From the NCBI GenBank assembly GCA_026388345.1, contig JAPLJY010000042.1, positions 1 to 22,109 of the forward strand: a stretch of DNA of 22,109 nucleotides, given 5' to 3'. Of this stretch, positions 1 through 21,759 are shown piece by piece. The notes under the pieces are model-generated. The model made no database searches. It was not told the origin of the DNA and worked only from the letters and a program-made list of their open reading frames with translations. Position numbers and translations under genes: made by a program. The DNA comes from Deltaproteobacteria bacterium (GTDB taxonomy: Bacteria; Desulfobacterota; Syntrophia; Syntrophales; UBA5619). How positions within the stretch are numbered: the first letter of the stretch is position 1; each line of letters begins with the position of its first letter.

Positions 1-2088
1 CGTCGCAGCGGGCGGCCATCCAGGCCGACATGTTGTCCTTCATGCTGGGCGTGAAGGGGGAGAGTAGCACAAACTCCTCCTTTTCGGCCCCGGGGAGCTT
101 CATGATCGTGTAGTAGGGATCCATGGCATTTTGACCGCCGGGGCCGGCGACCTGTTTCCCCGGGATGTACCAGAGGTCTTCCTTGTTGTAGAAGACCTGC
201 GCATCCTGCATGTGGTAGACCCGGTACATCCGTGCCTGGATTGTAAGCAGTCCCGGCGGATAGCGGACATGGCTCCGGAGCGCCTCCGGCATCTCGCCCA
301 TCGGCTTGAAAACGCCCGGAAAGATCCGGCTGTAGGTCTGCATGATGGGATCGGTCGGATCGCTCACGTAGAGCTGGACCGTTCCGTCATAGGCATCCAC
401 GACCGCCTTCAAGGTGTTGCGGATGTAGTTGCCCATGTCCGGGGTCGGCTCCGAATAGGGGAAACGGTCCTTAACCGTGTATCCGTCGATGAACCACAGC
501 AGGCGCCCCTCCGGCGAGATGACGAGATAGGGGTCTGCATCCAGGTGTGCAAAGGGGGCGACCATGGAAACCCGCTCGCGGACGTTCCGGTGGTACATCA
601 CCCGGCTGTCGGAGGTGATGTCGTCGGACAAAAGCAGTGTGATGGAACCGAAACGGACCGCAAAGATCAGTTTCTTCAGAAAGGAGAGGGGAACCCCCCC
701 TTTTCCTTCGTAGCGGGAGTAGACGTTCTTGTCGCCCACGGGGTAGTCGAACTCCGGCATTTTGGTCTTGACGAAGACATATTCGTTGGAGTTCTCCCCG
801 AAGTAGATCTCCGGGCGGTTGACCTTCAGCGGTGTCGTCGAGACGGGGGGGATGTCCTTGATGAAGAATTCCGGGAGTCCCTCGGGGGAGATGCGGTTCA
901 CCGGCCCCAGGACGACGCCGTAGCCGTGGGTGTAGGCGAGATGCTCGTTGACCCAGGTCCGGGACGGCAGCGCCGGATAGGAGATCTCCCGCGGGGAGAG
1001 CATCACCTGCCGGTATTCGCCGTTGATCGTGTAGCGGTCGTTGTCGACGCCGGTAAACTTGTAGTAGGTCCGCATCTCCTGGAGCTGGCTGTACGTCTGC
1101 AAGAGCGGGGCATGGTTCCACAGCCGGATGTTCTTCACGGTCAGGTTGTTCTTCTCCAGATCCTTCGCCGTCAGATTGTCCTCCGTCGGGAACTCCTTCT
1201 CCTCGATCTGGGTCAGGCCGTAGGCGAGGCGCGTATACCGGATGTTCTTCTCGATGTAAGGGGTTTCGGCGACGATCTCGTTGGGAATGACCTGGAATTT
1301 CTGGATCAGGGAGGGGTAGATTCCCCGGCCCAGGACCGACACGGCGATGAGGAGCGCAACGGCGGCCGCCGGGAAACGCCAGTCGGGCTTAACGGCGAAG
1401 AAGATCGCGGATAGTCCGGCGACGGCGTAGAGCCCCATCATGAGTTTCAGGACCCAGAGCTGCGTGGTCACGTCGGTGTAGCCCGGCCCGAAGACCACCC
1501 CCCGTTTCGTGAAGAGCAGATCGTTGAGGTCGAGCCAGGCGCCGAAGACGCCCCAGAAAAAGAAGAGGGCGATGAGGAGCGCAAGATGAATCCGTGCCGC
1601 CGGGGCGATCTTCCAGATCCGGGGCGGGGGAAGAGCGGGTCGGAGACGCCGAAGGGGGAGGGATTCAGGAAGAGCAGAAGATTTTCCCACTGGGCGGAAC
1701 CGTTGGCGGCGGCGAAGAGGGCGAACAGGAGGGCGGCGACAGGGATCATGACCTTGAGGAGGCCCGGCCCCATCTCCTGCAGCGGGATGCGGAACCCTGC
1801 CGCACCAGCCTGGTCGCCGAAGAGGGGTACCCGCGACAGGTGAAGCGCGATCAGCAGACTGCCGCAGAAAATGATGAAGAAGCCCGCCCCGAAGAGGGCG
1901 CCGGTCTTGATCTTTGCCAGCAGGGTCACGGTAAAGATCGTCTGGTAACCAACCTCCTGGAACCAGAACCACTCGGTGATCAGGCCGATGATTCGAAGAA
2001 AGATTACCAACAGGACCATCACGGCGATGAAGAGGATCACGCCTTTCATCTGTCTCATCTGGGACTGGGGTGTATGGACGGTGGTCAT
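1..2088 (-). pseudogene. UPF0182 family membrane protein gene, frameshifted and internally shortened; 3' end outside window
   Basis: This is a large inner-membrane protein of the UPF0182 family, whose biochemical function is unknown. The 5' part (start at 2088) has hydrophobic segments at about residues 15-35, 50-80 and 110-125 and reaches the family motif FGVSDPLF. In that frame the family sequence then stops making sense. From about 1640 the next frame gives recognisable UPF0182 sequence (IAPAARIHLALLIALF, GVVFGPGYTDV, THGYGVVLGPVNRISPEG, SPFTPSMKDNMSAWMAARCD) and stays open to the window edge. The segment expected after DP-(I/L)-F, starting GxDIGFYVF and carrying a membrane pair, is missing, so a deletion of perhaps 45-60 codons accompanies the frame change. 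An AAGGAG site lies 7 bases before the ATG. The start overlaps the stop of the radical SAM gene by 4 bases (ATGA), implying co-transcription. The family call is firm; whether the lesion is biological is not. Confidence 0.85.
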
Positions 2089-4656: not shown

Positions 4657-5799
4657 CTATGCCCCCATCTGCTTTGCCTTCAACTGCACGTCGTGCTCCG
4701 TATCTTCATAGCGTTTCGCTATCTGGATAAATTCATCGGCAATTTCCATAAAGGCATCCACGATATCAGGGTCAAAATGGGTGCCGCTGCTCTCGCGGAT
4801 GATTCCCAACGCCTTTTCATGGGGCATGCCCTCTTTATATACGCGCCGGCAAATCAGGGCGTCGTATACGTCCGCCACGGCCATCAGACGTCCGGAAATC
4901 GGGATGTCATCACCGGACAATCCTTCCGGGTAGCCCATGCCATCCCATTTCTCCTGATGGGAATAGGCGATTTCCTTGGCGAAGGAAAGGAACGGCAGAT
5001 CCAACCCAAGGCGTCGTTCCGCAGCGATGATGGCATCCCGCCCCAAGGCTGTATGGGTTTTCATGATTTCAAATTCCTCATCGGTGAAACGTCCCGGTTT
5101 CAGAAGGATGTGGTCGGGGATGCCCACCTTGCCGATATCATGCAACGGAGCTGATTTGAAAAGCAGATCAATGGTTTTGTCATCGTCGAGAAAATGGCTG
5201 AACCGTGGATGGCGGCGGAGCTTTTCAGCGAGGGCCCTGACATAAAACTGGGTGCGGCGGATGTGGTTGCCCGTATCGTTGTCCCGAGTTTCCGCCAGCG
5301 ACGCCATGGCCAGAATGGTAACTTCCTGGACTGCGACAACCTCCTGTGTTCGGCGCTGCACTTCCGCTTCCAAGAACACGTTTTGATCCTTGAGGTAGTC
5401 GCGCATTTTCTTTAATTGAAGATGGGTATTCACACGCGCAAGTACAACGGGCGGACTGATCGGCTTGGTGATGTAATCAACCGCGCCGAGTTCGAAACCC
5501 TTCATTTCATCCTCGACTTCAGCCTTGGCGGTCAGAAAAATCACAGGGATATCCCTGGTCTTCAGGTCTGTCTTTAACTGGCGGCAAGTCTCATAGCCAT
5601 CCATGACCGGCATCATGATGTCTAGCAGGATGATGTCGGGAGGCGTGCCGGTCATAGCGACTTTCAAAGCCCGCTCACCGTTGTTGGCAATTTTGACCTT
5701 GTACAGATCCTTGAGTAATCCACTCATCAAAGATAGATTGTCCGGTGTATCATCGACGACCAGAATCGTCGGCTTATCCATATAACTTGCCTCTGCCAT
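4657..5799 (-). CDS. Response regulator with HD-GYP domain (cyclic di-GMP phosphodiesterase, RpfG type)
   Basis: The 380-residue cytosolic protein has a receiver domain at about 10-130, with phospho-acceptor Asp60 (IILLDIMMPVMDG) and the conserved Lys112 (YITKP), then a helical linker at 130-165 and an HD-GYP domain at about 165-365. The HD pair is His220-Asp221 in HDIGKVGIPDH, and the GYP signature is HQEKWDGMGYPEGL at 281-294. Both metal-binding and signature residues are present, so hydrolysis of cyclic di-GMP under phosphorylation control is expected. AAGGAGG sits about 6 bases before the ATG. It is the last gene of the signalling module, 75 bases after a single-domain receiver that closely resembles its own receiver. 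The hybrid kinase two genes upstream is the natural phosphate donor (inference). Confidence 0.93.
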   Translation of the reverse strand: MAEASYMDKPTILVVDDTPDNLSLMSGLLKDLYKVKIANNGERALKVAMTGTPPDIILLDIMMPVMDGYETCRQLKTDLKTRDIPVIFLTAKAEVEDEMKGFELGAVDYITKPISPPVVLARVNTHLQLKKMRDYLKDQNVFLEAEVQRRTQEVVAVQEVTILAMASLAETRDNDTGNHIRRTQFYVRALAEKLRRHPRFSHFLDDDKTIDLLFKSAPLHDIGKVGIPDHILLKPGRFTDEEFEIMKTHTALGRDAIIAAERRLGLDLPFLSFAKEIAYSHQEKWDGMGYPEGLSGDDIPISGRLMAVADVYDALICRRVYKEGMPHEKALGIIRESSGTHFDPDIVDAFMEIADEFIQIAKRYEDTEHDVQLKAKQMGA

Positions 5800-5874
5800 T
5801 TCTGCCTCCTTGCCATTAAGGCTTCAAAAAATAAGCCATCTGCCAGATAACTTCTTGGTCATGCACGATATTAT

Positions 5875-6315
5875 TTACGACGGGTTATTCTCACCCAGCT
5901 TATTTTTCAAATAGTCCGTTACTCTCTTGAGTTGCAGATGAGTCCGGACGCGGGCCAATACGATGGGGGGGCTTACCGGTTTTGTAATATAGTCCACAGC
6001 TCCGAGTTCAAAGCCCTTCATCTCATCGTCAACATCAGACTTTGCCGTCAGAAAAATAACAGGGATATCTGCCGTTTGAGAGTCGTTTTTCAATTGGCGG
6101 CACACCTCATAACCATCCATTTCGGGCATCATGATGTCGAGGAGGATCAGGTCAGGCGGGTCCTGAGAATAGGCGATCTGAAGGGCCTTCTTGCCGGTCG
6201 TGGCAATTTTTATCTTATATCGGTCACTGAGCATCGAGCTTACCATCGCCAGGTTTTCAGGTGTGTCATCGACGATCAGTATCGTTTGCTTTTCTTGATC
6301 GTTTCCGTCAGTCAT
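5875..6315 (-). CDS. Single-domain response regulator (receiver only)
   Basis: The 146-residue protein is a CheY-type receiver with the acidic pair in ILIVDDTPEN, the phosphorylation site in LILLDIMMPEMDG and the conserved lysine in YITKP. It stops soon after the receiver fold with a short helical tail (LKNKLGENNPS). The chosen ATG at 6315 has GGAGG 8 bases upstream. A longer frame would begin at a TTG overlapping that same GGAGG and is less likely. It is very similar to the receiver of the downstream HD-GYP protein over its whole length (shared FELGAVDYITKP and VLAR.. THLQLK), so the two look like duplicates. It probably acts as a phosphate sink or intermediate competing for the hybrid kinase, or signals by protein contact, since it has no output domain. 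Confidence 0.9.
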   Translation of the reverse strand: MTDGNDQEKQTILIVDDTPENLAMVSSMLSDRYKIKIATTGKKALQIAYSQDPPDLILLDIMMPEMDGYEVCRQLKNDSQTADIPVIFLTAKSDVDDEMKGFELGAVDYITKPVSPPIVLARVRTHLQLKRVTDYLKNKLGENNPS

Positions 6316-6323
6316 CGCTTCAT

Positions 6324-6328
6324 CCTCC
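6324..6328 (-). promoter_or_regulatory. Ribosome binding site that sets the receiver start
   Basis: GGAGG, 8 bases before the ATG at 6315. It overlaps the alternative upstream TTG frame, which argues for the shorter start. Confidence 0.7.
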
Positions 6329-6386
6329 AAAAAATTATCCTAACGTTTTCGTCTTACCCCGGGGCTCTCTCCCCATTCGCAGGAAA

Positions 6387-9194
6387 CTACCGATGCTTGT
6401 TGAACTTTTCCGCCTGCGATTTCATTAACTCCAGGGCTTGTGCAAAATCGTACTGTTTGACGGCGTGATCGAACGGGCCGAAGTGCTCCATTCCCAGGAT
6501 GTAGCGCAGGGCATCCTTTTCCGCCTCGAGATAGTCCACCGCTTCGCTGTCATCGTTGGCGAGGAGTTCCATCATTTTTTCACAAACCGCCGTTGCCTTT
6601 GCCTCATCCACCGTGTCAACCTCTTCCCGGACTGCCGCCACGGGAAAAGCTTCCATCAGGCCGGCAATGAGTTTGCCGTGCTCTGCGCCGAAGGTGTCCA
6701 GCATCGTCCCGATTTCCTCGCGGGGCGATTTCTCCCGGATCGCCTTCTCCAGGGTAGCCGCCATCCCCTGCAGCCCTGTCGCGCCGATGTTCCCGCTGAC
6801 CCCCTTGGCCGTGTGGGCCAGACGCTCCGCCGTCCCGTAATCGTCGGCATCGAGGCTCTGGCGGATCTGCGCCGGGGCCTGACCTTGATTGTCGATGTAC
6901 TTCCTCAGCATGTCCATGTAAAAGGCCTTCTTGCCCATGACCCGTTTCAAACCGAGGCTGATATCGAGTCCGGGGATATCGGGCAGGTCGTCCTTCTTTG
7001 CCGGTTTTGGTTCCTCCTTTTCTATCTCCTTTGGCGCCTTGGCGGTTTCCTGAACCTCCTCGATCTTCCGAGGCTTCACCCACTTCAACAGCTTGCCGAA
7101 CAGCTCATCGGGGTCAATCGGCTTGCCGATATGATCCCACATGCCCGCGTCCCGGCATTTTTCAATATCCGCCTCCATGACATTGGCCGTCATAGCCAAA
7201 ATGGGCAGATCCTTATACCGTTCATCCTTGCGGATCTCACGCGTGGCTGTCGTACCGTCCATGACGGGCATCTGCATATCCATGAGCACGATGTCATAGG
7301 AACGTTTATTCACCATCTCGATCGATTTCTGGCCATTCTCCGCCACGTCCACCTTGAACCCGGCATCGGCGAGCAGTTCGCAGGCGATCTGCTGGTTGAA
7401 CTCGTTGTCCTCCACAAGGAGGATCGAAGAACCCTTGATGGTGTTGAGGTTTTCCATCAACGGTGTTGCCTGCTGAGTTTCTTCCCCCTTCTCATCATGC
7501 TTCCCGCCCAGAACCTGGACCAGCGTGTCGAACATCGTCGAAGCGCTTACCGGTTTAATGAGGACATCTTCGAGTCCTGCCAGGGCCGCCTCCTTCAATA
7601 CCTCCTCGCGGCCATAAGCCGTCACCATGACCATGTGCGGGATGGGAGAGAGGGGCAGCTCCCGGATTGCTTTTGCCGTTTCGATGCCGTCCATCCCCGG
7701 CATTCGCCAATCCAGCAATACCACATCATAAGACTCACCGGATTCGGCAGCGGTGCGGATCTCTTCCAGCGCCGCCTTGCCAGAGGCGACATCCTTCACA
7801 CTGAAGGTCATCCCGGTCAGCATGTCGCCAAGAACGATGCGGCTCATCTCGTTGTCATCCACCACCAGCACCCGCCGTCCCCGCAGGTCGGGTTCGGGCA
7901 GGAATGTTCTTGCTTTGGCAATGCCCTTGCCCAAGCGGGCCGTAAACCAGAAGGTGCTGCTTTTGCCGTATTCGCTCTCCACCCCCACATCGCCGCCCAT
8001 AAGGGTGGCCAATTTCTTGGAAATGGCCAGACCCAGTCCGGTGCCGCCGTACTTCCGCGATGTCGACATGTCGGCCTGCTGGAAGGACTGGAACAGCTTA
8101 CCGATCTGTTCCTCCGTCAGCCCGATGCCCGTATCACGGACGGCAAAACGGAAAAGGCCGTCATGGTCGGTTTCTTCAACAACCCTGACGGACACGACGA
8201 TCTCGCCCTGATCGGTGAACTTGACCGCATTGTTGGCATAATTGACCAGGATCTGCCCCAGCCTCAGCGGGTCGCCCACCAGATAATTGGGGGTTCCTTT
8301 CTCGACATGGAACACCAGCTCCAGACCCTTTGCGGCAGTCTTCTCGGAAATGAGGTTGGATACATTACCCAGTACCTTCTCCAGTTCAAATTCTGTCTGT
8401 TCCACCGCCAGCTTGCCCGCCTCGATCTTCGAGAAATCGAGGATGTCGTTGATAATTCCGAGCAGATGCTGTCCCGACTGCTGGATTTTACTGAGGTAGT
8501 CACGCTGCTTCCGGTCTAGGTCCGTCTTCATCGCCAGGTTGGAAAACCCGATGATCGCATTCATTGGGGTCCGGATCTCGTGGCTCATGTTCGCCAGGAA
8601 GTCCGCCTTGGCTTTGGCGGCGGCGTCGGCCGCCTGTCTTGCCTCATCGAGATCCTCGAGGATATTCAACATCGCTTTCCGTGCCTTGCTTAACTCATCA
8701 ACCTGCCGCTGGGAATCGTCCAAAATGTTTAACATCGCCGTCCGAGCCTCTGCCAACTCGTCAAGCTGATGCTGGAGATCCTCCTCGGATTTCTTTCGTT
8801 CCAGGAAGGAGTTTTCCAACTGCGCGGTCATGCTGTTGAAGGCCTCGGAGAATTCCCCCATAAAACTGACTTTTTGAGTGAAATCTCCCGCGGCAATCTG
8901 CTTGGTGGTCCAGGTCAAGGTTCTCAAGCTTGCGTGGAGACTCTTGAGCGACTGGGCAAAGATCAAGCCCACCTTGGGCGGGTCGAGATCGATCTCTCCC
9001 CGCCCCAGATGATAAGCAAAGGTGGTCATTTCATTATATTCAGCAATGAATTTGTTGAGATAACCGACCGCCTGCCGGATTTCATTGTCGGGATAATCCT
9101 GCGGCAGCTCGATTGGCACAGGTTTCTTGCCTTTGAGCATCGAATAAAGGACCGCCGTGACCTTGTCGATATCCTGCTCGTTGATCTGGATCAT
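6387..9194 (-). CDS. Soluble hybrid sensor histidine kinase (HAMP-like, HisKA, HATPase, two receivers, HPt)
   Basis: This 935-residue protein has no membrane segment. Domains in order: an N-terminal helical region (1-80); a HAMP-like segment (about 85-135, with [11 protein letters not shown]); a coiled coil with an exact-length 21-residue tandem repeat (140-181); HisKA with the phospho-accepting His205 in MSHEIRTP; an HATPase domain (about 300-425) with N and G boxes DTGIG and YGGTGLGL; a first receiver with Asp495 ([10 protein letters not shown]); a second receiver with Asp639 ([13 protein letters not shown]); a proline/lysine/glutamate-rich linker (710-740); and an HPt domain with His794 in AHTAKG. 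An 80-residue helical tail follows. All phosphorelay residues are present. It starts 11 bases after the V4R gene, so the V4R protein is the likely input partner. Its HPt domain can pass phosphate to the separate receivers downstream. GAAGGAA precedes the ATG by about 6 bases. Confidence 0.95.
8652..8777 (-). repeat. Tandem 21-residue (three-heptad) coiled-coil repeat within the hybrid kinase
   Basis: Residues 140-160 and 161-181 align without gaps; both contain DEL..ARxAMLNIL(D/E)D. A 21-residue period equals three heptads, so the copies can stack in register in the signalling helix between the HAMP-like segment and HisKA. The DNA copies have diverged, so this is not a recent slip. Confidence 0.8.
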
Positions 9195-9205
9195 TTGTTA
9201 TTCCT

Positions 9206-9733
9206 TCAGGCTGCCGGTTTGACGTTAAACCGGCAGACGCGGTCACCGGAACACCAGCAATCGACCTCTTTTACATCGAATTTCTTTCCGGAAAACGCCA
9301 AAAGCAGGCCGCTGATGAATCCCTCATCATAGGTGCAGATGGTTTCTTCGCAGACCGGCAAACCCGAACAGTCCAGATCTTCCGCCACGGTTAGTGTGAA
9401 TTCCATTTTCGCAAGATCTGCTTTTTCCACCCTCAGGATGCCGATTTTCAAGGCAGCCAGAAGATCCTGCAATTCCTTGACAAAGGCGCCGAAATCGGTC
9501 TTGTGGGTAATCAAGTTCTTGAACAACTCCCGGCCTGCGAGCTCACCCGCCTTGTAATAAATTCGTTCGGCCGTTGCCGCGTCAAACTCCTGAATAATGA
9601 TGTCCCGCAGCGTAAACTGCATGAGGCGATAGACCGCCACATCCATGGTGGAGCCAAGATTGGGGCGGCCCTCCGCAAGATTTCCGATCATGCTCCAGTC
9701 AAATAACGGCGCGTCTCTTTCTTCTTTGAACAT
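9206..9733 (-). CDS. V4R (4-vinyl reductase-like) small-molecule-binding domain protein
   Basis: The 175-residue single-domain cytosolic protein matches the V4R fold used as a ligand sensor in XylR/DmpR-type regulators and in bacteriochlorophyll-related proteins. The C-terminal signature is visible: a cysteine in CTYDEGFISGLL (133), then CWCSGDRVCRF with cysteines at 159, 161 and 167. Further cysteines at 122 and 128 make six in the last third, which would suit a metal site (inference). It has no catalytic or DNA-binding domain, so it should act on a partner. The gene lies between the PocR sensor (29 bases upstream) and the hybrid kinase (11 bases downstream). AAGGAGG is 5 bases from the ATG, a strong translation signal. 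The ligand is unknown; characterised V4R-containing regulators respond to small aromatics. Confidence 0.88.
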   Translation of the reverse strand: MFKEERDAPLFDWSMIGNLAEGRPNLGSTMDVAVYRLMQFTLRDIIIQEFDAATAERIYYKAGELAGRELFKNLITHKTDFGAFVKELQDLLAALKIGILRVEKADLAKMEFTLTVAEDLDCSGLPVCEETICTYDEGFISGLLLAFSGKKFDVKEVDCWCSGDRVCRFNVKPAA

Positions 9734-9762
9734 GGCAACCTCCTTTTTTATGAATGATTCTG

Positions 9763-12699
9763 TTATTCTTCAACGATCTTATACTTCTTCTCCCTGCCCG
9801 TTTGCTCCAGAAGGAGATTAATTTCCTCCTTGAGCTGAATCATCTTTTCCTCGCGGTTGATGGTCAGATGACTGAACCGTTCCAGCTCTTCCATTCGCTC
9901 CTGCAGCACTCTTTCCGCTTGCCTGCGCTCCGTGATGTCCGTCAGCCAACCGAGAATACCCTCCTCGCCCTCGACGGTGATCGGCAGAAACGTAACGAGC
10001 ATATCCCTGACTTGTTTATGACGGTCGTACATTTGAATCTCATGGTCCCTGGCAATTCCGTCGCGTTTCATGCGTTCAACCAGCGCCTCCCGCTCTTCCG
10101 GGTGCACGTAAAGCTGGGGAGAGGCATCGCCCACCTTGGCGCCGAACGTTTCCGTGAAAAGCGGATTGGCAAAATGAATCCTGCCTTTGGTCGAGAAGGC
10201 GATGCTCACAGGCGCCGTTTCGAGGATCTGTCGGCTTCGTTCCTCGCTGGCGCGCAGCTCGTCGGTCCGCTGCTGGACAAGCAGCTCCAGGTTAGCCCTG
10301 TATTGCTCAACCTCTGTCCTGGCCTGGTCGGCGTCCTCAGCCAGACTCATCGCGGCGGAGCGCTCCAGTCTCAACTCCTCGGCCTTCTTTGTGCTTGAAT
10401 TTTCGGCCATTTTCGCTCGGTAGCGCTCCATGGACATGGTTGCCACGGTTTGCGCCATTCCTGCCAGGAATTCCAGGATCGACTCGAGTTTGTTTTCGGC
10501 GACCACCGGAACTTCCCGGATGGCCTCCAGGTATTTTTCTGCATCCAGACCGCACTCTTCGGCCTGGCGCCGGAAGAATTCCACATCCGGGGGGCTGGTG
10601 AAAAACTGGCCCACGAAGGTGTTGGCCATGTGCCTGCCATCGATGACAATGGGTGCTGCCGCGTCCGTGAGGCCGTTCCTGCAGCGGTAAACGGAAAAGG
10701 GTTTGCCTTCATTCATCTGGATGGCGAGCTCGGTATCGCTTTCTATGCAGCGGGCACAGGTTTTTTCATTGACCCGGTGGAAATCGGTACAGGCCCGCTG
10801 CCACCGGGCCGCAGCCAGGACCTCGCCCTTCAGGTCGATAATGGCGGCGGCGATGCCCACCGACTCGCAAAAAGCAACCAGCAGGTGTTGAAACTGATCC
10901 ACGCTGAGCATTTCGAACAGGTTATAGGGTTCCGTTTCTGTTTGTTCCGGCTCCGGCGGTGACAACACGGTCTGGGCCGATGTTTCACCCGGTTCCGCTG
11001 CCAGTGCCTGTTCCCGATAGAGTGGCTTCTCGCCTGCCTTGGCGGCAAGGGCATTCACCTGCCTTTTTAACTCAATGATTTGTTCTTCCCGGCCCAGGAA
11101 TAGGCGGTGGGAGCGCTCGATCTCCAGGATCTTGGCCCCCAGTTCCTGCTGGGCCCGTTCTGCCCGGGCTGCCGCCTCTTCGGCAACCTCCTTTTCCACC
11201 TTCAGGCCTTCGGCTTTTTTGCGCTCGATAATGTCGTGAAATGAAACGACTGTCCCGCCCACCTGGCCGTCTTTCCAGACCGGTGTCGTCGCGTATTCCA
11301 CGGGAACCGCCGTGCCGTCCTTGCGCCAGAGCACCTCGCTGTCCACCATGCGGGCCGTGCCATCCTGGGAAGTCAGGAACATGGAGCACTGCAACCGCGG
11401 GAATTCCGAGCCGTTGGGATAGGCGTAATGAATCAGGTCATGCAGTGATTTGCCGAGCAATTCCTCTTCTGTATAGCCAAGGATGGCGCACCCCGCGGGA
11501 TTGACGAAGATTACCTTCCCTTCCGGATCAATGCCAAAGATCCCCTCGCTCATGGAACCGAGGATCAGTCGGCTCCTCTCTTCGGTTTGCGCCAAAGACG
11601 CCTTGCTTTCCTCAAGCTCGCGACGCTGTTCGATAAGCGCTTCTTTCTGGGACTCCAGTTCGTCCGTTCGGGCCCGCAGTTGCTGCTCCGAATCAACAAG
11701 GGCCGCTGCCTGTGATTGACTCTCCTTGAGCAGCGTCTTCATCCTGAAATTCGACTGTGTGAAGATATAAACCGTTGCCAGAAAACTGAGGGTCAATAAA
11801 AGGGCCAACAGGGTCAAAACAATGCCGACGGACCGGTACATGCTGATCTGTCCTGTCGGCCAGAGAAGGACAACAGAGACGCCTTCGTACGGTGTGGCGT
11901 TCTGTGATGCCAGATACTGCCCCCCCTGAAAAGTCACTTCCGTTTTTTCTTTGAATGGCTTTTGCAGAACGGGTTCGAAGGGTCCCGGACCGTATTGTTT
12001 TGAAAGGATGATTTTCTGCTGCTGCTCGTCGCTCAGCGGCCATAGACTTTTCAGACGCGCCTCCGGCTGCGAAGATATAAAGATGATGCCGCTTTGGTCC
12101 ACCAGGAACCAGCGATACTGGCTAAGCTTTGTTTCGATATCCTCAATTTCCTTTTTGATGGTCACAACCCCGACGATCTGACCTTCCTTGTCCCTGACCG
12201 GGGCGCTGGCGTAAAAGCCGCGCCTCTTCGATACCGTTCCATAAGCGAATAAGTAGCCGATGCCGCCCTTGATCGCCTGCTGGAAGTATGGCCTGAACGT
12301 GTAGTTCTGCCCGACAAAACTGTCCTTTTCGTTCCGGTTGGAGGATGCCAGCGTCAACCCGTTCTGATCGATGAGGTAACAGGCTGCCGCTTCCAAAGAC
12401 TTGTGATAACGATCCAGGATGTTGTTTACCTTTTCCATGTTCTCAGGGGTATTGGCCTGCAACAGGGGAAGGGTCAAGGGGGATCCGGCAACGGCCACGG
12501 CAGCGCTCTCAATGCGCTTTAATTCACTGGTCAGGTTAATGGATATGACCGCATTTGCATTTTCCAGCTCTCTTTCGACGATGCGTGTTGCCATTCCGAC
12601 AAGATAGCCGGTAAAGACCCATCCTGCCGCCGTCACGATGAAGAGCGCGCACAAGACTGAAATCACAAAGCTTTTTTTTGTAAAATGAAATGTCGGCAT
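9763..12699 (-). CDS. Membrane sensor with Cache-like, PAS, PocR and PAS domains, no kinase domain
   Basis: The protein is about 978 residues. Membrane helices at about 11-36 and 290-314 enclose a periplasmic domain of about 250 residues with double-Cache character. The cytosolic part holds a coiled coil (320-370), a PAS domain (370-495), a short helical motif (ERSHRLFLGREEQIIELK, about 528-545), a PocR ligand-binding domain (about 592-758) with cysteines near 637, 648, 651 and 673, a second coiled coil, a second PAS (820-928) and a C-terminal tail MEELERFSHLTINREEK..IQLKEEINLLLEQ. There is no HisKA, HATPase, GGDEF, EAL, HD-GYP or methyl-accepting region, so it must signal through another protein. 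The ATG at 12699 has GAGGT 9 bases upstream; a TTG two codons earlier is the alternative. It shares its tail with the PAS sensor upstream and is followed 29 bases on by the V4R gene. Confidence 0.9.
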   Translation of the reverse strand: MPTFHFTKKSFVISVLCALFIVTAAGWVFTGYLVGMATRIVERELENANAVISINLTSELKRIESAAVAVAGSPLTLPLLQANTPENMEKVNNILDRYHKSLEAAACYLIDQNGLTLASSNRNEKDSFVGQNYTFRPYFQQAIKGGIGYLFAYGTVSKRRGFYASAPVRDKEGQIVGVVTIKKEIEDIETKLSQYRWFLVDQSGIIFISSQPEARLKSLWPLSDEQQQKIILSKQYGPGPFEPVLQKPFKEKTEVTFQGGQYLASQNATPYEGVSVVLLWPTGQISMYRSVGIVLTLLALLLTLSFLATVYIFTQSNFRMKTLLKESQSQAAALVDSEQQLRARTDELESQKEALIEQRRELEESKASLAQTEERSRLILGSMSEGIFGIDPEGKVIFVNPAGCAILGYTEEELLGKSLHDLIHYAYPNGSEFPRLQCSMFLTSQDGTARMVDSEVLWRKDGTAVPVEYATTPVWKDGQVGGTVVSFHDIIERKKAEGLKVEKEVAEEAAARAERAQQELGAKILEIERSHRLFLGREEQIIELKRQVNALAAKAGEKPLYREQALAAEPGETSAQTVLSPPEPEQTETEPYNLFEMLSVDQFQHLLVAFCESVGIAAAIIDLKGEVLAAARWQRACTDFHRVNEKTCARCIESDTELAIQMNEGKPFSVYRCRNGLTDAAAPIVIDGRHMANTFVGQFFTSPPDVEFFRRQAEECGLDAEKYLEAIREVPVVAENKLESILEFLAGMAQTVATMSMERYRAKMAENSSTKKAEELRLERSAAMSLAEDADQARTEVEQYRANLELLVQQRTDELRASEERSRQILETAPVSIAFSTKGRIHFANPLFTETFGAKVGDASPQLYVHPEEREALVERMKRDGIARDHEIQMYDRHKQVRDMLVTFLPITVEGEEGILGWLTDITERRQAERVLQERMEELERFSHLTINREEKMIQLKEEINLLLEQTGREKKYKIVEE

Positions 12700-12708
12700 G
12701 ATCAAAAT

Positions 12709-12729
12709 ACCTCGCTTGTTAATACAAGC
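12709..12729 (-). promoter_or_regulatory. Ribosome binding site and adjoining 16-base palindrome upstream of the PocR sensor
   Basis: GAGGT (12709-12713) precedes the ATG at 12699 by 9 bases. Immediately upstream is GCTTGT-TAAT-ACAAGC (12714-12729 on the plus strand), perfect 6-base arms around a 4-base loop. Its position against the Shine-Dalgarno sequence would suit an operator or an RNA hairpin that limits translation (inference). Confidence 0.45.
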
Positions 12730-12785
12730 CCGTCATTTTTCAAAGAAACATTAAGATTCAGTGCACGCGGATTGTGGCTTTGAAT

Positions 12786-12858
12786 GGCTGAAGGATTGAA
12801 CGAGTGCAAAATATTCAAAAAGTACCATCGGTCAATCCTTTTTGAATATGCTTCAGCC
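12786..12858. repeat. Nested inverted repeats between the two sensor genes
   Basis: An inner perfect pair, ATATTCAAAAAG (12811-12822) and CTTTTTGAATAT (12838-12849), with a 15-base loop lies inside an outer pair, GGCTGAAG (12786-12793) and CTTCAGCC (12851-12858). AAGGATTGA (12791-12799) is also repeated in inverted form at 12831-12840 with one mismatch at its edge, so two alternative folds are possible. No T run follows in the minus-strand direction, so it is not a standard terminator. It occupies the 249-base gap that divides the signalling module in two. Confidence 0.6.
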
Positions 12859-12948
12859 CGCCGTAAAAGACAAGTTTTTTAATGGCCTGCATCCTCCTGT
12901 CTCATCTCTTTGCGTTCTCCAACAGCGAGAAATCTGATGGTTCTGTTT

Positions 12949-14535
12949 CTAAGCAACGATTTTATACTTTTGCTCCTTGCCCGCCTGTTCCAGAAGCAGA
13001 TTGATTTCCTCCTTGAGTTGAATCATCTGCTTCTCGCGGTTGATGGTTAGGCGACTGAACCGCTCGAGTTCTTCCATCCGCTTCTTGAGTTCTCTTTCCG
13101 CCTGTTTGCGTTCGGTGATGTCCTCGAGTGTACAGACGATGCCCTGCGAAATGTCTTGCGCATCCACCGCGCGAACCCGGAAGAGGCACCAGAACAAGCT
13201 TCCGTCCTTGCGGGGTAGCTCTTGTTCACGCTGATGTATAGCCTGATGCTTCAAATCTTCGTAAGTGCTCGCGCCTATGCCTAAATACTCTTCTTCGTTC
13301 TTATACCAGATGCGTGTGGTCTGCCCAACCATTTCGTCCAAAGGTCGGCCGAATAATTCCCCGAGCTTCGCGTTTCCGCGAAGAATGATCCGATCCTTGA
13401 TGAAGGCGATGCCGAGAGTAAGCGATTCGAATATGGCGGCCTGTTCCTGGCCCGCCTGCTTCAGGGCCTCGGCCGCCGCCTTGCGCGAGGTGATGTCTCG
13501 CACCGTACCCACTGCGAACCACTCTTCGTCCAATTGGAAGGGGGACAGGTTGACCTCCACGGGAAAAACCCTGCCAGCATGGTTGATGGCGGTCGTTTCA
13601 ATTGCAGCGCCGAAAAGGACGCCTTGCCCGGTCTCCGCAAATTGCCTCACTCCCTCCTGGGCTTTCTCCCTGGTTTCGGCCGGCACAGCCATTTCGTGGA
13701 AATCCTTGCCCATGGCTTCGGAGGCGGTGTAGCCGAACAGCTTCTCCGCCGCCTGGTTCCAGAAAAATACCTTGCCCTGACCATCGATCATCACCAGGGC
13801 ATCATTGACCGCCTGGCTCATGGCATCGATCTTGTGCATGGTGGATTCAACTTCCTTGGTGCGCTCCAGCACACGCTCTTCCAATACCTCATTTGCAGTT
13901 GAAATTTCCGTCTGTAATCGCACTTGTTCAGCCAGATCAGCCCGGGTTCTGCGCGAAAACATGATGCCTGTCCACAGCAACAGACAGAGTGCGCCGATTC
14001 GGGCGGCGAGCGCCGCCGTTTTTATTCTGTTAAAGCGCTTTTCAATCGCACCGATTTCTCCCAGAACAACCCCCGGGATGGTTTCGCTGTCAATTTCATA
14101 GGTTTTTTTTGCACTTAAATACTCGTCGCCAAAGAGGATGTCCCGCGCCTCTTTCCATTTGTCCGATCTCATCCGTCGGAGGACCATTTCTTCAATGTCG
14201 CGAATTTTTTTCTGGCCCTCACTCAATGCAGAAACTTCCTGGGTCATGCTCTGGTCTTTTGTGAGTTCAATTACCTTCTGTATAGCTGCCTCTACATCCT
14301 GACGAACCGTTTCATACCGGGTTACGCGCAACTCATTATGCTCGACGACGGCAAGCGCGAGCATGCCGGTCAACTCTTGGTCAAGCCGAACCATCCTTTC
14401 CAATGCGGTGCTTATTTGCAGATGCCGGGCATCCATGGCTTCGTTCTGAACATCCAGGTAGTAGCCAACAACAAGGATGATAAACAATATGCCGACCGCC
14501 GAATATAATGCTTTGACGCTATTGAAAAATCGCAT
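12949..14535 (-). CDS. Membrane PAS-PAS sensor, no kinase domain
   Basis: This 528-residue protein has a membrane helix at about 8-28, a helical periplasmic region (30-170) resembling four-helix-bundle sensor domains, a second membrane helix at about 174-193, a coiled coil (200-235), PAS domains at about 237-352 and 362-478, and a C-terminal tail MEELERFSRLTINREKQ..IQLKEEINLLLEQ ending KYKIVA. PAS-associated ends VRDIT and LEDITERK are visible. No transmitter or output domain follows; the reading frame simply stops after the tail. The tail is almost the same as that of the next gene's product. A purine-rich GGGGAGAGGGGG lies 4 bases before the ATG. It is 43 bases downstream of the binding-protein gene, so a link between captured ligand and this sensor is likely (inference). 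Confidence 0.9.
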   Translation of the reverse strand: MRFFNSVKALYSAVGILFIILVVGYYLDVQNEAMDARHLQISTALERMVRLDQELTGMLALAVVEHNELRVTRYETVRQDVEAAIQKVIELTKDQSMTQEVSALSEGQKKIRDIEEMVLRRMRSDKWKEARDILFGDEYLSAKKTYEIDSETIPGVVLGEIGAIEKRFNRIKTAALAARIGALCLLLWTGIMFSRRTRADLAEQVRLQTEISTANEVLEERVLERTKEVESTMHKIDAMSQAVNDALVMIDGQGKVFFWNQAAEKLFGYTASEAMGKDFHEMAVPAETREKAQEGVRQFAETGQGVLFGAAIETTAINHAGRVFPVEVNLSPFQLDEEWFAVGTVRDITSRKAAAEALKQAGQEQAAIFESLTLGIAFIKDRIILRGNAKLGELFGRPLDEMVGQTTRIWYKNEEEYLGIGASTYEDLKHQAIHQREQELPRKDGSLFWCLFRVRAVDAQDISQGIVCTLEDITERKQAERELKKRMEELERFSRLTINREKQMIQLKEEINLLLEQAGKEQKYKIVA

Positions 14536-14578
14536 TTGCCCCCTCTCCCCACTTCTTAAGGATGCAATCTGAAGATCT

Positions 14579-15556
14579 TTACTTGAGGACCTTGTCGGCC
14601 TTCTTCAAAATATCGGGTGGAATGATCACCCCCTGGATCTTTGCCGCACTTTGATTGATGACCAGACTGAACTTCTCCATCGGCCCCCAGGGAATCTCGC
14701 CGGGTTTCAGGCCCTTAAGCGCCAGCACGGCCTTTTTCCCCGCCGCGTAGCCGACCAGGAAATAATCCAACCCGTATGCGGCGATTGCCCCCTTGGGAAC
14801 GCTGTCCACATCACCCGCGAAAAGCGCAATCTTCTTTTCATTGCATACCTTAACAATGGTCCCGAAATCTGAAATCGCCGTATTATCGGATGAGATCACT
14901 ATGGCCTGGACCTTGCCGACCAGGGAGTTAACGGCCCGCGGAACCTCCGAGCGATCGGTAATCGTCACCTCAACCAGCTCCATCCCCAGTTTTTTTACGG
15001 TTTCTCTCATTTCCTTGATATGCACGACAGAGTTTGCCTCTCCGGCATTGTAAATGGTGCCCCATTGTTTTGCTTTGGGGACGAATTTTGCGTACATCTC
15101 CATCTGGCGAAATACCGGCCAGCGATCGCTGACACCGGTCACATTGGTGCCCGATTTCTTTCCGGGAGCGCTGTCCTTCGGGACGATCCCGGCATTGATC
15201 GGATCGGTGATCGATGAAAAGATAACAGGGATATTTCGGGTAATCTTCACCACCGCCTGGGTCGTCGGGGTGGCAATGGCATGAATCAGATCCACCTTCT
15301 CATCAATGAACTTCTGGGCAATGGCGTTGGCTTTGTTCATATCCCCCTGTGCATTTTGACGGTCATAGGTGACATGGACGCCTTCCTTGAAGCCGCTGCT
15401 GCTCAAAGCATTTTCAAACCCCTTCTGGTCTGCATCCAGCGCCTGGTGGGAAACGATCTGGGTAACCCCGATCCGGATCTTTTTCTTGTCTTGAGCAAAC
15501 GCTACAATAGACATGAAAACCATCATAATTGACAACAGCGTACACAACTTTTTCAT
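14579..15556 (-). CDS. ABC transporter substrate-binding protein (ABC_sub_bind / TrpX-like, PF04392)
   Basis: The 325-residue protein is exported: residues 1-21 form a Sec signal peptide (KK, then a hydrophobic core, then AFA before QDKKK). The mature part has the two-lobed periplasmic binding fold typical of ABC_sub_bind: IRIGVTQIVSHQALDADQKG at the start, QNAQGDMNKANAIAQKF, then IPVIFSSITDPI and LDYFLVGYAAGKKA. Some family members bind tryptophan or other aromatic or amino-acid-like compounds; the ligand here is unknown. No permease or ATPase gene is adjacent, which is unusual because the family normally sits with both. The gene lies 26 bases after the porin and 43 bases before a membrane sensor, so it may deliver its ligand to a sensor instead of, or besides, a transporter. 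A purine-rich GGAGAGGAGAG precedes the ATG. Confidence 0.9.
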   Translation of the reverse strand: MKKLCTLLSIMMVFMSIVAFAQDKKKIRIGVTQIVSHQALDADQKGFENALSSSGFKEGVHVTYDRQNAQGDMNKANAIAQKFIDEKVDLIHAIATPTTQAVVKITRNIPVIFSSITDPINAGIVPKDSAPGKKSGTNVTGVSDRWPVFRQMEMYAKFVPKAKQWGTIYNAGEANSVVHIKEMRETVKKLGMELVEVTITDRSEVPRAVNSLVGKVQAIVISSDNTAISDFGTIVKVCNEKKIALFAGDVDSVPKGAIAAYGLDYFLVGYAAGKKAVLALKGLKPGEIPWGPMEKFSLVINQSAAKIQGVIIPPDILKKADKVLK

Positions 15557-15582
15557 GGCTGATCTCTCCTCTCCTTTACAGT

Positions 15583-16938
15583 TCAGAAGAAGTTATACTG
15601 AATCATGGTATTGATGCGATGCTGGGTTCCTTCCTCGTCGGCGAACGTGATGCGCCTGCCCCAGGAGTATTCTATGCCCGCCTCCACGTTTTTCATGACG
15701 CCCCAGAGGAGGTTGACGCTCGCCTGGTCGACCCGCTTGTTGGGCACAAATTCATCCGCTTTCCCTGACCAGAAGCGTCCGTAAGCGTTGGAAATCTCGT
15801 CCGTTCCGAAATAGGTCTGGCTGGCGATGAAATTGGAACGTAAGGCGGAACTCCACGGCAACGTATATCCGATATGCCAGCCCATCGCACGCCAGAGGCG
15901 CAGATCCGTACCGGTGTCGGTCGCGCCCTGCATAACGGAATTGAACATGTAGCGGCCGATCCCGTCCCCTCCCTGGATGCTGGCCACCAGCGTTCCCGCC
16001 CCCAGCCTGCTGCTGCCGCTCAGGGCCAGCGCATAACCGCGTTGGCTGTGATTGTCGTTGTTGTATTCCATCGTCACCGCACGGGCGGAAACATGGGCCT
16101 TTTCACCGTTCAACGTCCAGTTGACCACGAAATCGTGCACCCTGTCGAAATCGATACGACCCGTGTTGGATCTATTTTGATACGGAGGCAAACCGGACAG
16201 GCCTTCCGGATTCTCGATGGAAAACGCCAGCGAGGAGCCGCCCAGCGGCAATGTGTAGCGCAGTTGCGCCTGACGGATCAGCGTCACGTCCCCGGTGGGG
16301 TTGAAATCCACCGTTTCCGGGTACGATCGGAGGTCGATGAAGTTCGACCAGGTCTGCCCCACCAGCAGATTGCCCCATCGGCCGTAGGCATGCCGCAGGC
16401 GGAACTGGGTGCCATTGGAGCCCAATTCACCCATGTAAGCATTGGGCGCATTGAAATCTCCCTCTACTTTGACTTCCAGATCCCCCCACTGGGAAGGCGT
16501 GCTGGTCACGATGCCGAGGCGGCTTGCTCGTGCGGTTGCATAGAGCTGGTTTTTGCGCTGCTGGTTTGCGCTGTTGGTGTCCAACGGCTGGGCGAAGACG
16601 GCGGCGGACCAGTCATTGTTGTTAATATCGTTGCTGCGGCCGGCAAAATCGTAGGTGGCATCAACCCGGACATTGCCGTAAATTTTCAGCGACGTATCCG
16701 TTCCGGGTATCATGATAGAGCCGGGCATCGAGCCGGCCATGACCGGCTTGGCGGGTTCTGCCGCTTCGGCCTTTGCGGGCGGCTTTGTAACCTGCATTTT
16801 TTGCTGGTTTTCCAACTGCTCGATCCGCTTCTGCAACTGGAGAACCGTTGCCTTCAGTTCATCCAGCTCGCTGCCGAATGCCGGCATGCTCATCGTTCCC
16901 GCAATCATCAACGCAAGCACAAATATCCATCGTCGCAT
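15583..16938 (-). CDS. DcaP-like outer-membrane porin
   Basis: This 451-residue protein has a signal peptide (about 1-22, ending PAFGS), then a short coiled coil (ELDELKATVLQLQKRIEQLE, about 24-43), a proline/alanine-rich spacer and a beta-barrel region from about residue 83 (KIYGNVRVDATYDF) to the C-terminal phenylalanine (MIQYNFF), the usual outer-membrane insertion signal. The N-terminal coiled coil before a 16-strand-type barrel is characteristic of DcaP, a trimeric porin that passes dicarboxylates and other negatively charged small molecules. SRLGIVTSTPSQWGDLEVKVEGDF and LRHAYGRWGNLLVGQTWS are typical strand and turn sequences of this group. It is the first gene of the signalling module and has AAGGAGG 4 bases before the ATG. 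Substrate specificity cannot be read from sequence. Confidence 0.88.
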   Translation of the reverse strand: MRRWIFVLALMIAGTMSMPAFGSELDELKATVLQLQKRIEQLENQQKMQVTKPPAKAEAAEPAKPVMAGSMPGSIMIPGTDTSLKIYGNVRVDATYDFAGRSNDINNNDWSAAVFAQPLDTNSANQQRKNQLYATARASRLGIVTSTPSQWGDLEVKVEGDFNAPNAYMGELGSNGTQFRLRHAYGRWGNLLVGQTWSNFIDLRSYPETVDFNPTGDVTLIRQAQLRYTLPLGGSSLAFSIENPEGLSGLPPYQNRSNTGRIDFDRVHDFVVNWTLNGEKAHVSARAVTMEYNNDNHSQRGYALALSGSSRLGAGTLVASIQGGDGIGRYMFNSVMQGATDTGTDLRLWRAMGWHIGYTLPWSSALRSNFIASQTYFGTDEISNAYGRFWSGKADEFVPNKRVDQASVNLLWGVMKNVEAGIEYSWGRRITFADEEGTQHRINTMIQYNFF

Positions 16939-20838: not shown

Positions 20839-21759
20839 TTACTCCCCGATGATCTTGACCTCGGTTTCGAGGGCATGGCCGGTCTTTTCAAAAACACGCT
20901 GCTGAATCAACGCAATCAGACGAAGGACATCGTCCGCAGTAGCCATCCCCCGGTTGACGATGAAATTCCCATGTTTTTCAGAGACCTGCGCGTCTCCGAT
21001 CCGGACCCCCTTAAGTCCTGCCTCTTCGATGAGCCTGCCGGCGGGGCAATCCTGCGGGTTCTTGAAGACGGAGCCGGCATTCCGGAATTCCAGCGGGTGC
21101 TTTTCCCTTCTCATCCCGATGATTTCCCGGATGCGTCCGGAGATTTTCTCCGTCTCTCCCCGCCGCAGACGGAAAGTTGCGCCGATGATAATCGTTTCCG
21201 CCGGCAAGTCAAGATTTCTGTATGCAAAAGGAAGATCCTCCCGCGCGGCGGTGCGGATCCTGCCCGAATCATCGAGCAGACTTACGGATTCAACGATATT
21301 CCTGATCTCCCCCCCCTAGGCCCCGGCGTTCATCCGGACGGCGCCGCCCACGCTGCCGGGGATGCCGGCGCAGAACTCCATCCCCGCGAGCGCTTCGCGA
21401 ACCGCGAGGCTCACCAGTTCGGAAAGCGGACAGCCAGCTTCTGCAAGAAGAAGAACGCCGCCCTTGCCTTCATCCCGGAGGTTCAGGCCGCGCAGGCGCG
21501 CAAGCGAGACGAGGGCGCCTCTGTACCCCCCGTCCCGGACGATCAGATTGGTCCAGTTGCCCACCGGGAGGAAAGATACCTGCCGCCCCCGGAGAAAACC
21601 GACGACCTCCGTGAGTTCCCCCTCATCTTCCGGGAAGAGCAGGGCGTCGATTCCCCCGCCGACGCCGATCGAGGTATGGCGTCCGGCCGGTTCGTCGAAG
21701 AGGATCTTCCCCGTCATCCGCTGCCGGAGCTCTCCGCGGAAAGTCTCATCCCCGCTCAT
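20839..21759 (-). pseudogene. murB: UDP-N-acetylenolpyruvoylglucosamine reductase gene with an in-frame TAG
   Basis: MurB is the FAD enzyme that reduces UDP-GlcNAc-enolpyruvate to UDP-MurNAc in peptidoglycan synthesis. The frame covers 306 codons, a normal length, but codon 148 (21316-21318) is TAG. The surrounding peptide is NAGA-stop-GGEI, where the family has NAGAYGGE, so one base change (TAC or TAT to TAG) explains it; the frame is unbroken on both sides. The N-terminal part has HTSIGVGG and the FAD loop PVGNWTNLIVRDGG, with Trp where a glycine is usual. The C-terminal part has SVFKNP with the catalytic serine and the glutamate-bearing VSEKHGNFIVN region. It overlaps murC by 4 bases (ATGA) and precedes ftsQ by 12. 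Because murB is normally essential, a sequence error or a second MurB is more likely than true loss. Confidence 0.93.

Follow-up and report, generated by a model that had tools for sequence, protein, structure and literature searches.

Organization of the locus

The window analyzed here is a 22,109-nucleotide stretch of contig JAPLJY010000042.1 from a member of the Deltaproteobacteria, and it contains a run of eight open reading frames, all on the minus strand, that encode a porin, a substrate-binding protein, two membrane sensors, a V4R protein, a soluble hybrid kinase, a lone receiver, and an HD-GYP protein. The locus appears to be a sensor kinase split into separate proteins, in which the V4R protein likely passes the signal of the sensors to the kinase that they share. 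An earlier note on this DNA had listed eight collinear genes of these families, and both the limits of the reading frames and the Pfam assignments agree with that description. Coordinates refer to the whole stretch, and the loci, genomes, and clusters used for comparison carry L, G, and P numbers, respectively.

Sensor 1 (12949..14535, minus strand, as for all features of the run) combines two membrane segments with a PAS-PAS pair, and sensor 2 (9763..12705, with a likely ATG start at 12699) has the order dCache-PAS-PocR-PAS. Both end in a conserved C-terminal tail, which occupies 12952..13128 in sensor 1 (residues 470-528) and 9766..9945 in sensor 2; a degenerate internal copy is found in sensor 2 before PocR, from residue 528 (11011..11124). 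No HisKA or HATPase domain is detected by Pfam in either protein, in line with the earlier description of both as sensors without a transmitter, and a hydropathy scan gives two strong membrane segments for each, together with a third, weaker peak inside the PocR domain of sensor 2. The same scan shows no membrane segment in the V4R protein (9206..9733), the kinase (6387..9194), the lone receiver (5875..6330), or the HD-GYP protein (4657..5799).

In the kinase, a soluble N-terminal module precedes the domains HisKA-HATPase-REC-REC-Hpt given by Pfam. With the H-box SHEIRTP at 204, the REC aspartates, and the Hpt motif HTAKG, its HisKA, HATPase, REC, and Hpt domains are all present with phospho-acceptor residues. 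It had been described as lacking both a membrane part and a sensory domain; the former holds, and the latter does not, as residues 1-178 (8661..9194) form a HAMP-like input module. The lone receiver is a single REC domain that is 71% identical to the REC domain of the HD-GYP protein. The latter has the architecture REC-HD-GYP with the motifs HDIGK and HQEKWDGMGYP, from which it is predicted to be a cyclic di-GMP phosphodiesterase. At the upstream end of the run are the substrate-binding protein (14579..15556; ABC_sub_bind, PF04392) and a DcaP-type porin (15583..16938; Pfam DcaP/Porin_2). The spacing inside the run is 11 to 75 bp, except for 243 bp between sensors 1 and 2.

The sensors share a conserved C-terminal tail

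The last 50 residues of sensors 1 and 2 are 78% identical, and the tail as a whole is ∼55 residues long. Using residues 470-528 of sensor 1 as the query, we matched 169 proteins, and in each of the 120 that were listed the alignment ends 0 to 12 residues from the C terminus. None of these 120 contains a kinase core, either as Pfam HisKA/HATPase or as a kinase-core match; as accepted lengths ran from ∼290 to 924 residues, kinases were not filtered out by size. Given that the tail has a mean identity of 74% over 800 random pairs, compared with 28% for the preceding 125 residues, we do not favor the idea that it is an ordinary PAS linker. The input domains of the listed relatives vary and include Cache, SBP_bac_3, GAF, PocR, and HAMP, and many of these proteins are named only as a "PAS domain S-box" protein with no known output.

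In many genomes the tail is linked to V4R by position, fusion, and co-occurrence

Loci were also picked by V4R alone, which gave 29, of which two with a truncated V4R (L028 and L029) were set aside to leave 27 intact loci. In nine of the 27, which come from several labeled phyla, the gene immediately before V4R encodes a tail sensor. In three genomes PAS, tail, and V4R are joined in one reading frame, and a search with this PAS-tail-V4R part returned eight fusion clusters, of which two are almost the same as the query; the spacer between tail and V4R measures 11 to 16 residues in seven clusters and 25 residues in P0246. A further cluster, P0249, fuses V4R, module, and cyclase with no linker. 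The overlapping fusions thus define an order of sensor, tail, V4R, module, and output, which is the gene order of the window. A different layout is seen at L137 (4955-9748), where V4R and a module-SpoIIE protein are followed by a second V4R fused to SBP_bac_3-PAS-tail, such that a single output is flanked by two V4R copies.

In a sample of 247 genomes, eight of the nine with a strong tail match (E below 1e-12) also have a strong V4R match (E below 1e-30; p = 1e-8), with G001, the center of the sample, included. The contigs listed for tail and for kinase, when judged by size, have 15 of 113 in common, against a mean of 0.69 and a maximum of 3 for shifted lists. Across G001 to G013 there are 23 tail, 18 V4R, and 18 module matches, and tails outnumber modules in five of these genomes, namely G001 (where both copies are in one protein), G002, G004, G011, and G013. 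This suggests that a kinase is shared by several sensors in some genomes, including that of the window with its two sensors and one kinase; such sharing is not general.

V4R is paired with a HAMP-like input module

The input module extends from residue 1 to ∼178 of the kinase and is N-terminal in all 120 listed relatives of the 320 found. Its similarity to HAMP (PF00672, cut-off 25) amounts to 18.0 bits in the window kinase, which is below the cut-off. Among ten relatives scanned, HAMP is above the cut-off in four (L005, 34.2; L013, 27.2; L016, 25.2; and L021, 29.5), below it in L015, L018, L020, and L023, and not listed for L017 and L022. A PDB sequence search with the module was uninformative, as it returned mostly designed coiled coils.

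Of the 27 intact V4R loci, 26 have the module in the N-terminal part of the protein encoded by the following same-strand gene; in the exception, L004, the module lies 8 kb downstream of V4R. The record labels of the V4R loci span Deltaproteobacteria, Nitrospirae, Calditrichaeota, Lentisphaerae, Firmicutes families, Bacteroidales, and an archaeon. The output that follows the module is variable: ten downstream module proteins were scanned, and they comprise five with GGDEF, one with a nucleotide cyclase, one with SpoIIE, two kinases, and one (L005) with no output domain. When the search was reversed and started from the module, V4R was found to adjoin it in 40 of 47 places (21 of 25 in the phylum sample of G001, 7 of 9 for the G017 phylum, and 12 of 13 for the G006 phylum), places being counted here because certain loci, e.g. 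L082 and L112, coincide. Within the 247 genomes, 23 have a strong V4R match, and 18 of the 20 with a module are among them (p = 6e-21). The V4R and module distances are also correlated (r = 0.805 over 56 non-redundant pairs, reached in 0 of 2000 permutations), a correlation to which the kinship of the species contributes, so that it shows joint inheritance and not contact.

Two side arrangements concern the module itself. At L005 (10535-11071) and L006 (10470-11066) a gene for the module alone separates V4R from HD-GYP, and a large hybrid kinase is encoded upstream of the tail sensor; this stand-alone module may be a loose adaptor. In the Lentisphaerae loci L010 and L013, V4R is followed by a module gene, with a cyclase output in L013 and the end of the contig cutting the gene in L010; the tail matches of these two genomes are on other contigs.

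Sequence features of the V4R protein

The V4R protein passes the Pfam model PF02830 (46.6 bits, cut-off 31). In an alignment of 28 V4R sequences the cysteines C122, C133, C159, and C167 are invariant and there is no invariant histidine, and Pfam gives no HNOB match. The MsvR cysteines C206, C232, and C240, which were tested in PMC3729527, have the same spacing, 26 and 8, as C133, C159, and C167 of the V4R protein. With three cysteines spaced as in MsvR and C122 also invariant, the V4R protein may sense by itself. The protein is below the cut-off of the NCBIfam MsvR model (59.6 bits compared with 220), and only its residues 32-171 match, to the C-terminal part of that model. MsvR and PoxR/MopR/DmpR also use V4R as a regulatory input, although there the domain lies inside transcription regulators, whereas in the window it is a separate protein that is proposed to act on a kinase. 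A PDB sequence search with V4R gave weak matches (best E 0.039), including MJ1460, PoxR, and MopR, and a V4R search of a plasmid collection gave no match. In clusters P0250, P0252, and P0253, V4R is at the C terminus of proteins listed with dCache, GGDEF, and EAL, with no module match.

The conserved core and its optional outer parts

An HD-GYP gene comes immediately after the module gene in L001, L003, L005, L006, L009, and L014, and HD-GYP likewise follows in G118, G253, and G082, three genomes selected because they contain both tail and V4R. Three of the nine tail loci are cut off early (L002 and L007 inside the kinase, L012 in a truncated REC gene), and HD-GYP is present after the module gene in five of the six that reach beyond it. 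The earlier view that sensors, V4R, kinase, and HD-GYP belong together is supported by the recurrence of their order, by the co-occurrence of the parts, and by natural fusions. In the relatives it is the core of tail-bearing PAS sensor, V4R, hybrid kinase, and HD-GYP that keeps its order; the order of all eight genes is not kept. A lack of conserved order, which the earlier note had named as grounds for refutation, is thus seen for the outer part and not for the core.

The outer components are less constant. The closest relatives of the binding protein (85% and 68%) adjoin tail sensors resembling sensor 1 in G002 and G004, which agrees with its earlier placement in the system to the extent of these two genomes, and no tail was found within ∼1.5 kb of its relatives in the 8 places checked of 24 others. 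No permease or ATPase gene was seen beside it at the window locus, and it scores below the cut-off of the TrpX model (244 compared with 390). Binding domains like PF04392 also occur, some of them two per frame, in frames of ∼940-980 residues at L158, L159, L160, and L165. The porin, which had been proposed as part of the relay, has matches in 2 of 23 genomes, both 28% identical and on contigs or at positions away from the system; with no porin orthologue at the system in any of the 23, we rejected it as a member and regard it as a neighbor only. The 20 kb examined at G253 contain sensor 2, V4R, kinase, and HD-GYP and lack the binding protein, sensor 1, and the porin. Given this core-only locus, the 243-bp gap, and the absence of the porin from the system, the unit is best read as a core plus an optional pair consisting of the binding protein and sensor 1.

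Proposed signaling route and alternatives

The sequences show the domains and motifs, the gene order kept in relatives, and the co-occurrence and fusion of the parts; from these we infer a scheme that covers docking, the direction of the signal, phosphotransfer, ligands, and an effect on cyclic di-GMP. The binding protein would probably present a ligand to sensor 1, and sensor 2 would contribute Cache and PocR inputs. The shared tail of both membrane sensors likely docks on the V4R protein. V4R would then act on the adjacent soluble kinase, likely by switching its HAMP-like input module, and, having four invariant cysteines, would be a cytoplasmic redox or ligand gate as well as a coupler. Phosphate from the kinase would pass via REC and Hpt to the lone receiver and to the REC domain of the HD-GYP protein, altering the hydrolysis of cyclic di-GMP. 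The porin has no part in the scheme. That V4R likely passes the signal of the sensors to the shared kinase follows from relatives that carry the neighboring parts fused in single proteins, and we consider it fairly probable that the signal runs from the tail through V4R and the module into the kinase and on, by phosphotransfer, to the HD-GYP receiver, each contact and chemical step being predicted from sequence.

A number of observations weigh against this route, and some of them would suit a scheme in which V4R and the module form a self-contained cytoplasmic redox or ligand switch and the membrane sensors, as neighbors only, signal to unlinked partners. Since 18 of the 27 V4R-module loci lack a tail sensor just before V4R, V4R must be capable of functioning in the absence of such a sensor. 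In addition, 16 of the 24 tail genomes among the 247 have no V4R match at E ≤ 1e-5; these 16 include all 15 genomes in which the best tail match is weaker than 1e-12. The MsvR-like spacing of three V4R cysteines also speaks for such a switch. However, the eight clusters that fuse sensor, tail, and V4R in one chain, and the nine loci of several labeled phyla in which a tail sensor directly precedes V4R, argue against mere proximity, and we regard a self-contained switch as unlikely. The route through V4R also has to accommodate the 7 of 47 module places without an adjoining V4R, the lack of HD-GYP after the kinase in L011, two tail sensors of G004 that are on contigs other than those of its V4R genes, and G029, where a tail occurs with no more than a truncated V4R and without any module match. 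Some neighbors of weak tails are a GAF-HD-GYP protein or a tRNA synthetase; this follow-up covers 6 of the 15 genomes (G063, G068, G076, G090, G148, and G226), with Pfam applied to one downstream protein in each of two. At L141, L142, L143, and L148, weak tails end PAS proteins in genomes without a V4R match, and HD-GYP proteins, kinases, and a tRNA synthetase are among their neighbors. The picture that emerges has two layers, a widespread V4R-module switch and tail sensors that have been added to it in some lineages, the tails perhaps having other partners elsewhere.

The tail might instead act directly on the kinase, in the manner of a coiled-coil linker, with V4R as a side input that tunes the same kinase. 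Two cases are of this form: in Desulfamplus (L146) the tail runs into a hybrid kinase in one protein, with an HD-GYP gene next to it, and P0340 also joins tail and hybrid kinase in one chain, V4R being found in neither chain. These two cases stand against eight clusters with V4R behind the tail, and a tail is absent from all 120 listed module kinases, which makes direct action distinctly improbable. The view of the earlier note, that all eight genes form a single dedicated pathway across the envelope whose outer gate is the porin, draws on the single strand, the mostly short gaps, and the pairing of binding protein and sensor 1 in G002 and G004. It is at odds with the porin results, with the core-only locus of G253, and with the gap between the sensors, which may also mean that the run is read as two transcripts. 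We consider a pathway of all eight genes very improbable; of the single relay, the link between the members of the core is supported, and membership of the porin and the eight-gene order as one unit are not.

Relation to known signaling systems

The component families are all known, and a stand-alone sensor with a kinase is already known from H-NOX systems, for which we take HahK and the HnoB/C/D network of V. cholerae and S. oneidensis as the comparison. There (PMC8738867) the gene of a small stand-alone H-NOX sensor adjoins that of a kinase or of a cyclic di-GMP enzyme, and cyclic di-GMP is hydrolyzed further down the pathway; to that extent the window is similar, having a stand-alone sensor protein next to a kinase and a response regulator predicted to act on cyclic di-GMP. 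V4R and heme-NO-binding domains have moreover been reported (PMC5847659) as similar to a third domain, MetOD1. The window differs in that no H-NOX domain was matched and in that it adds membrane sensors with a shared tail and an effector with a HAMP-like module.

In chemoreceptor-CheW-CheA arrays, kinase-less membrane receptors with a conserved cytoplasmic end are connected by a small coupler to a soluble kinase. The window resembles these arrays in its receptors without a kinase, conserved end, coupler, and soluble kinase, but no MCP signaling, CheW, or CheA domain is found by Pfam in the eight proteins. In NosP/NahK, too, the sensor protein and the hybrid kinase are separate; the window kinase, however, scores below the NahK/ErcS model (202 compared with 400), and the partner encoded here is V4R. 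In the open-licence literature we found no description of a system in which sensors without a kinase bear a C-terminal tag, V4R serves as the coupler, and the output is interchangeable; subscription papers could contain one. One apparent match, in PMC9756655, is an accession number and not the domain.

We tentatively propose, as a possibility that we hold well short of conviction, a second scheme of receptor sharing built from parts unrelated to those of chemoreceptor arrays, in which a common C-terminal tag on kinase-less PAS receptors is read by V4R, and the V4R-HAMP pair is a portable switch before kinases, diguanylate cyclases, nucleotide cyclases, and SpoIIE phosphatases. If true, it would be a counterpart to the CheW/CheA arrays. 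A tag that predicts the partner would make the output of tail proteins testable, and if receptors share one kinase through the tag, they would provide a natural set of parts for bringing new inputs into a fixed output.

Surrounding sequence

The run is followed downstream by a radical SAM gene, and the gene upstream of it is presumably ftsZ. Rfam gives no family for the window at gathering scores, and none for the intersensor gap even when E values up to 1 are admitted. Scans for promoters and terminators were uninformative, with 6 promoter-like sites compared with 8.6 in shuffled sequences and 21 terminator-like sites compared with 16.3. Elsewhere in the window a UPF0182 gene (1471-2088, minus strand) appears to be broken, its 206-residue reading frame covering only positions 3-137 of a 770-position profile. 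The murB gene (20839-21759, minus strand) is split into an FAD-binding part (21316-21759) and a MurB_C part (20839-21207), which share a reading frame and are separated by a stop codon.

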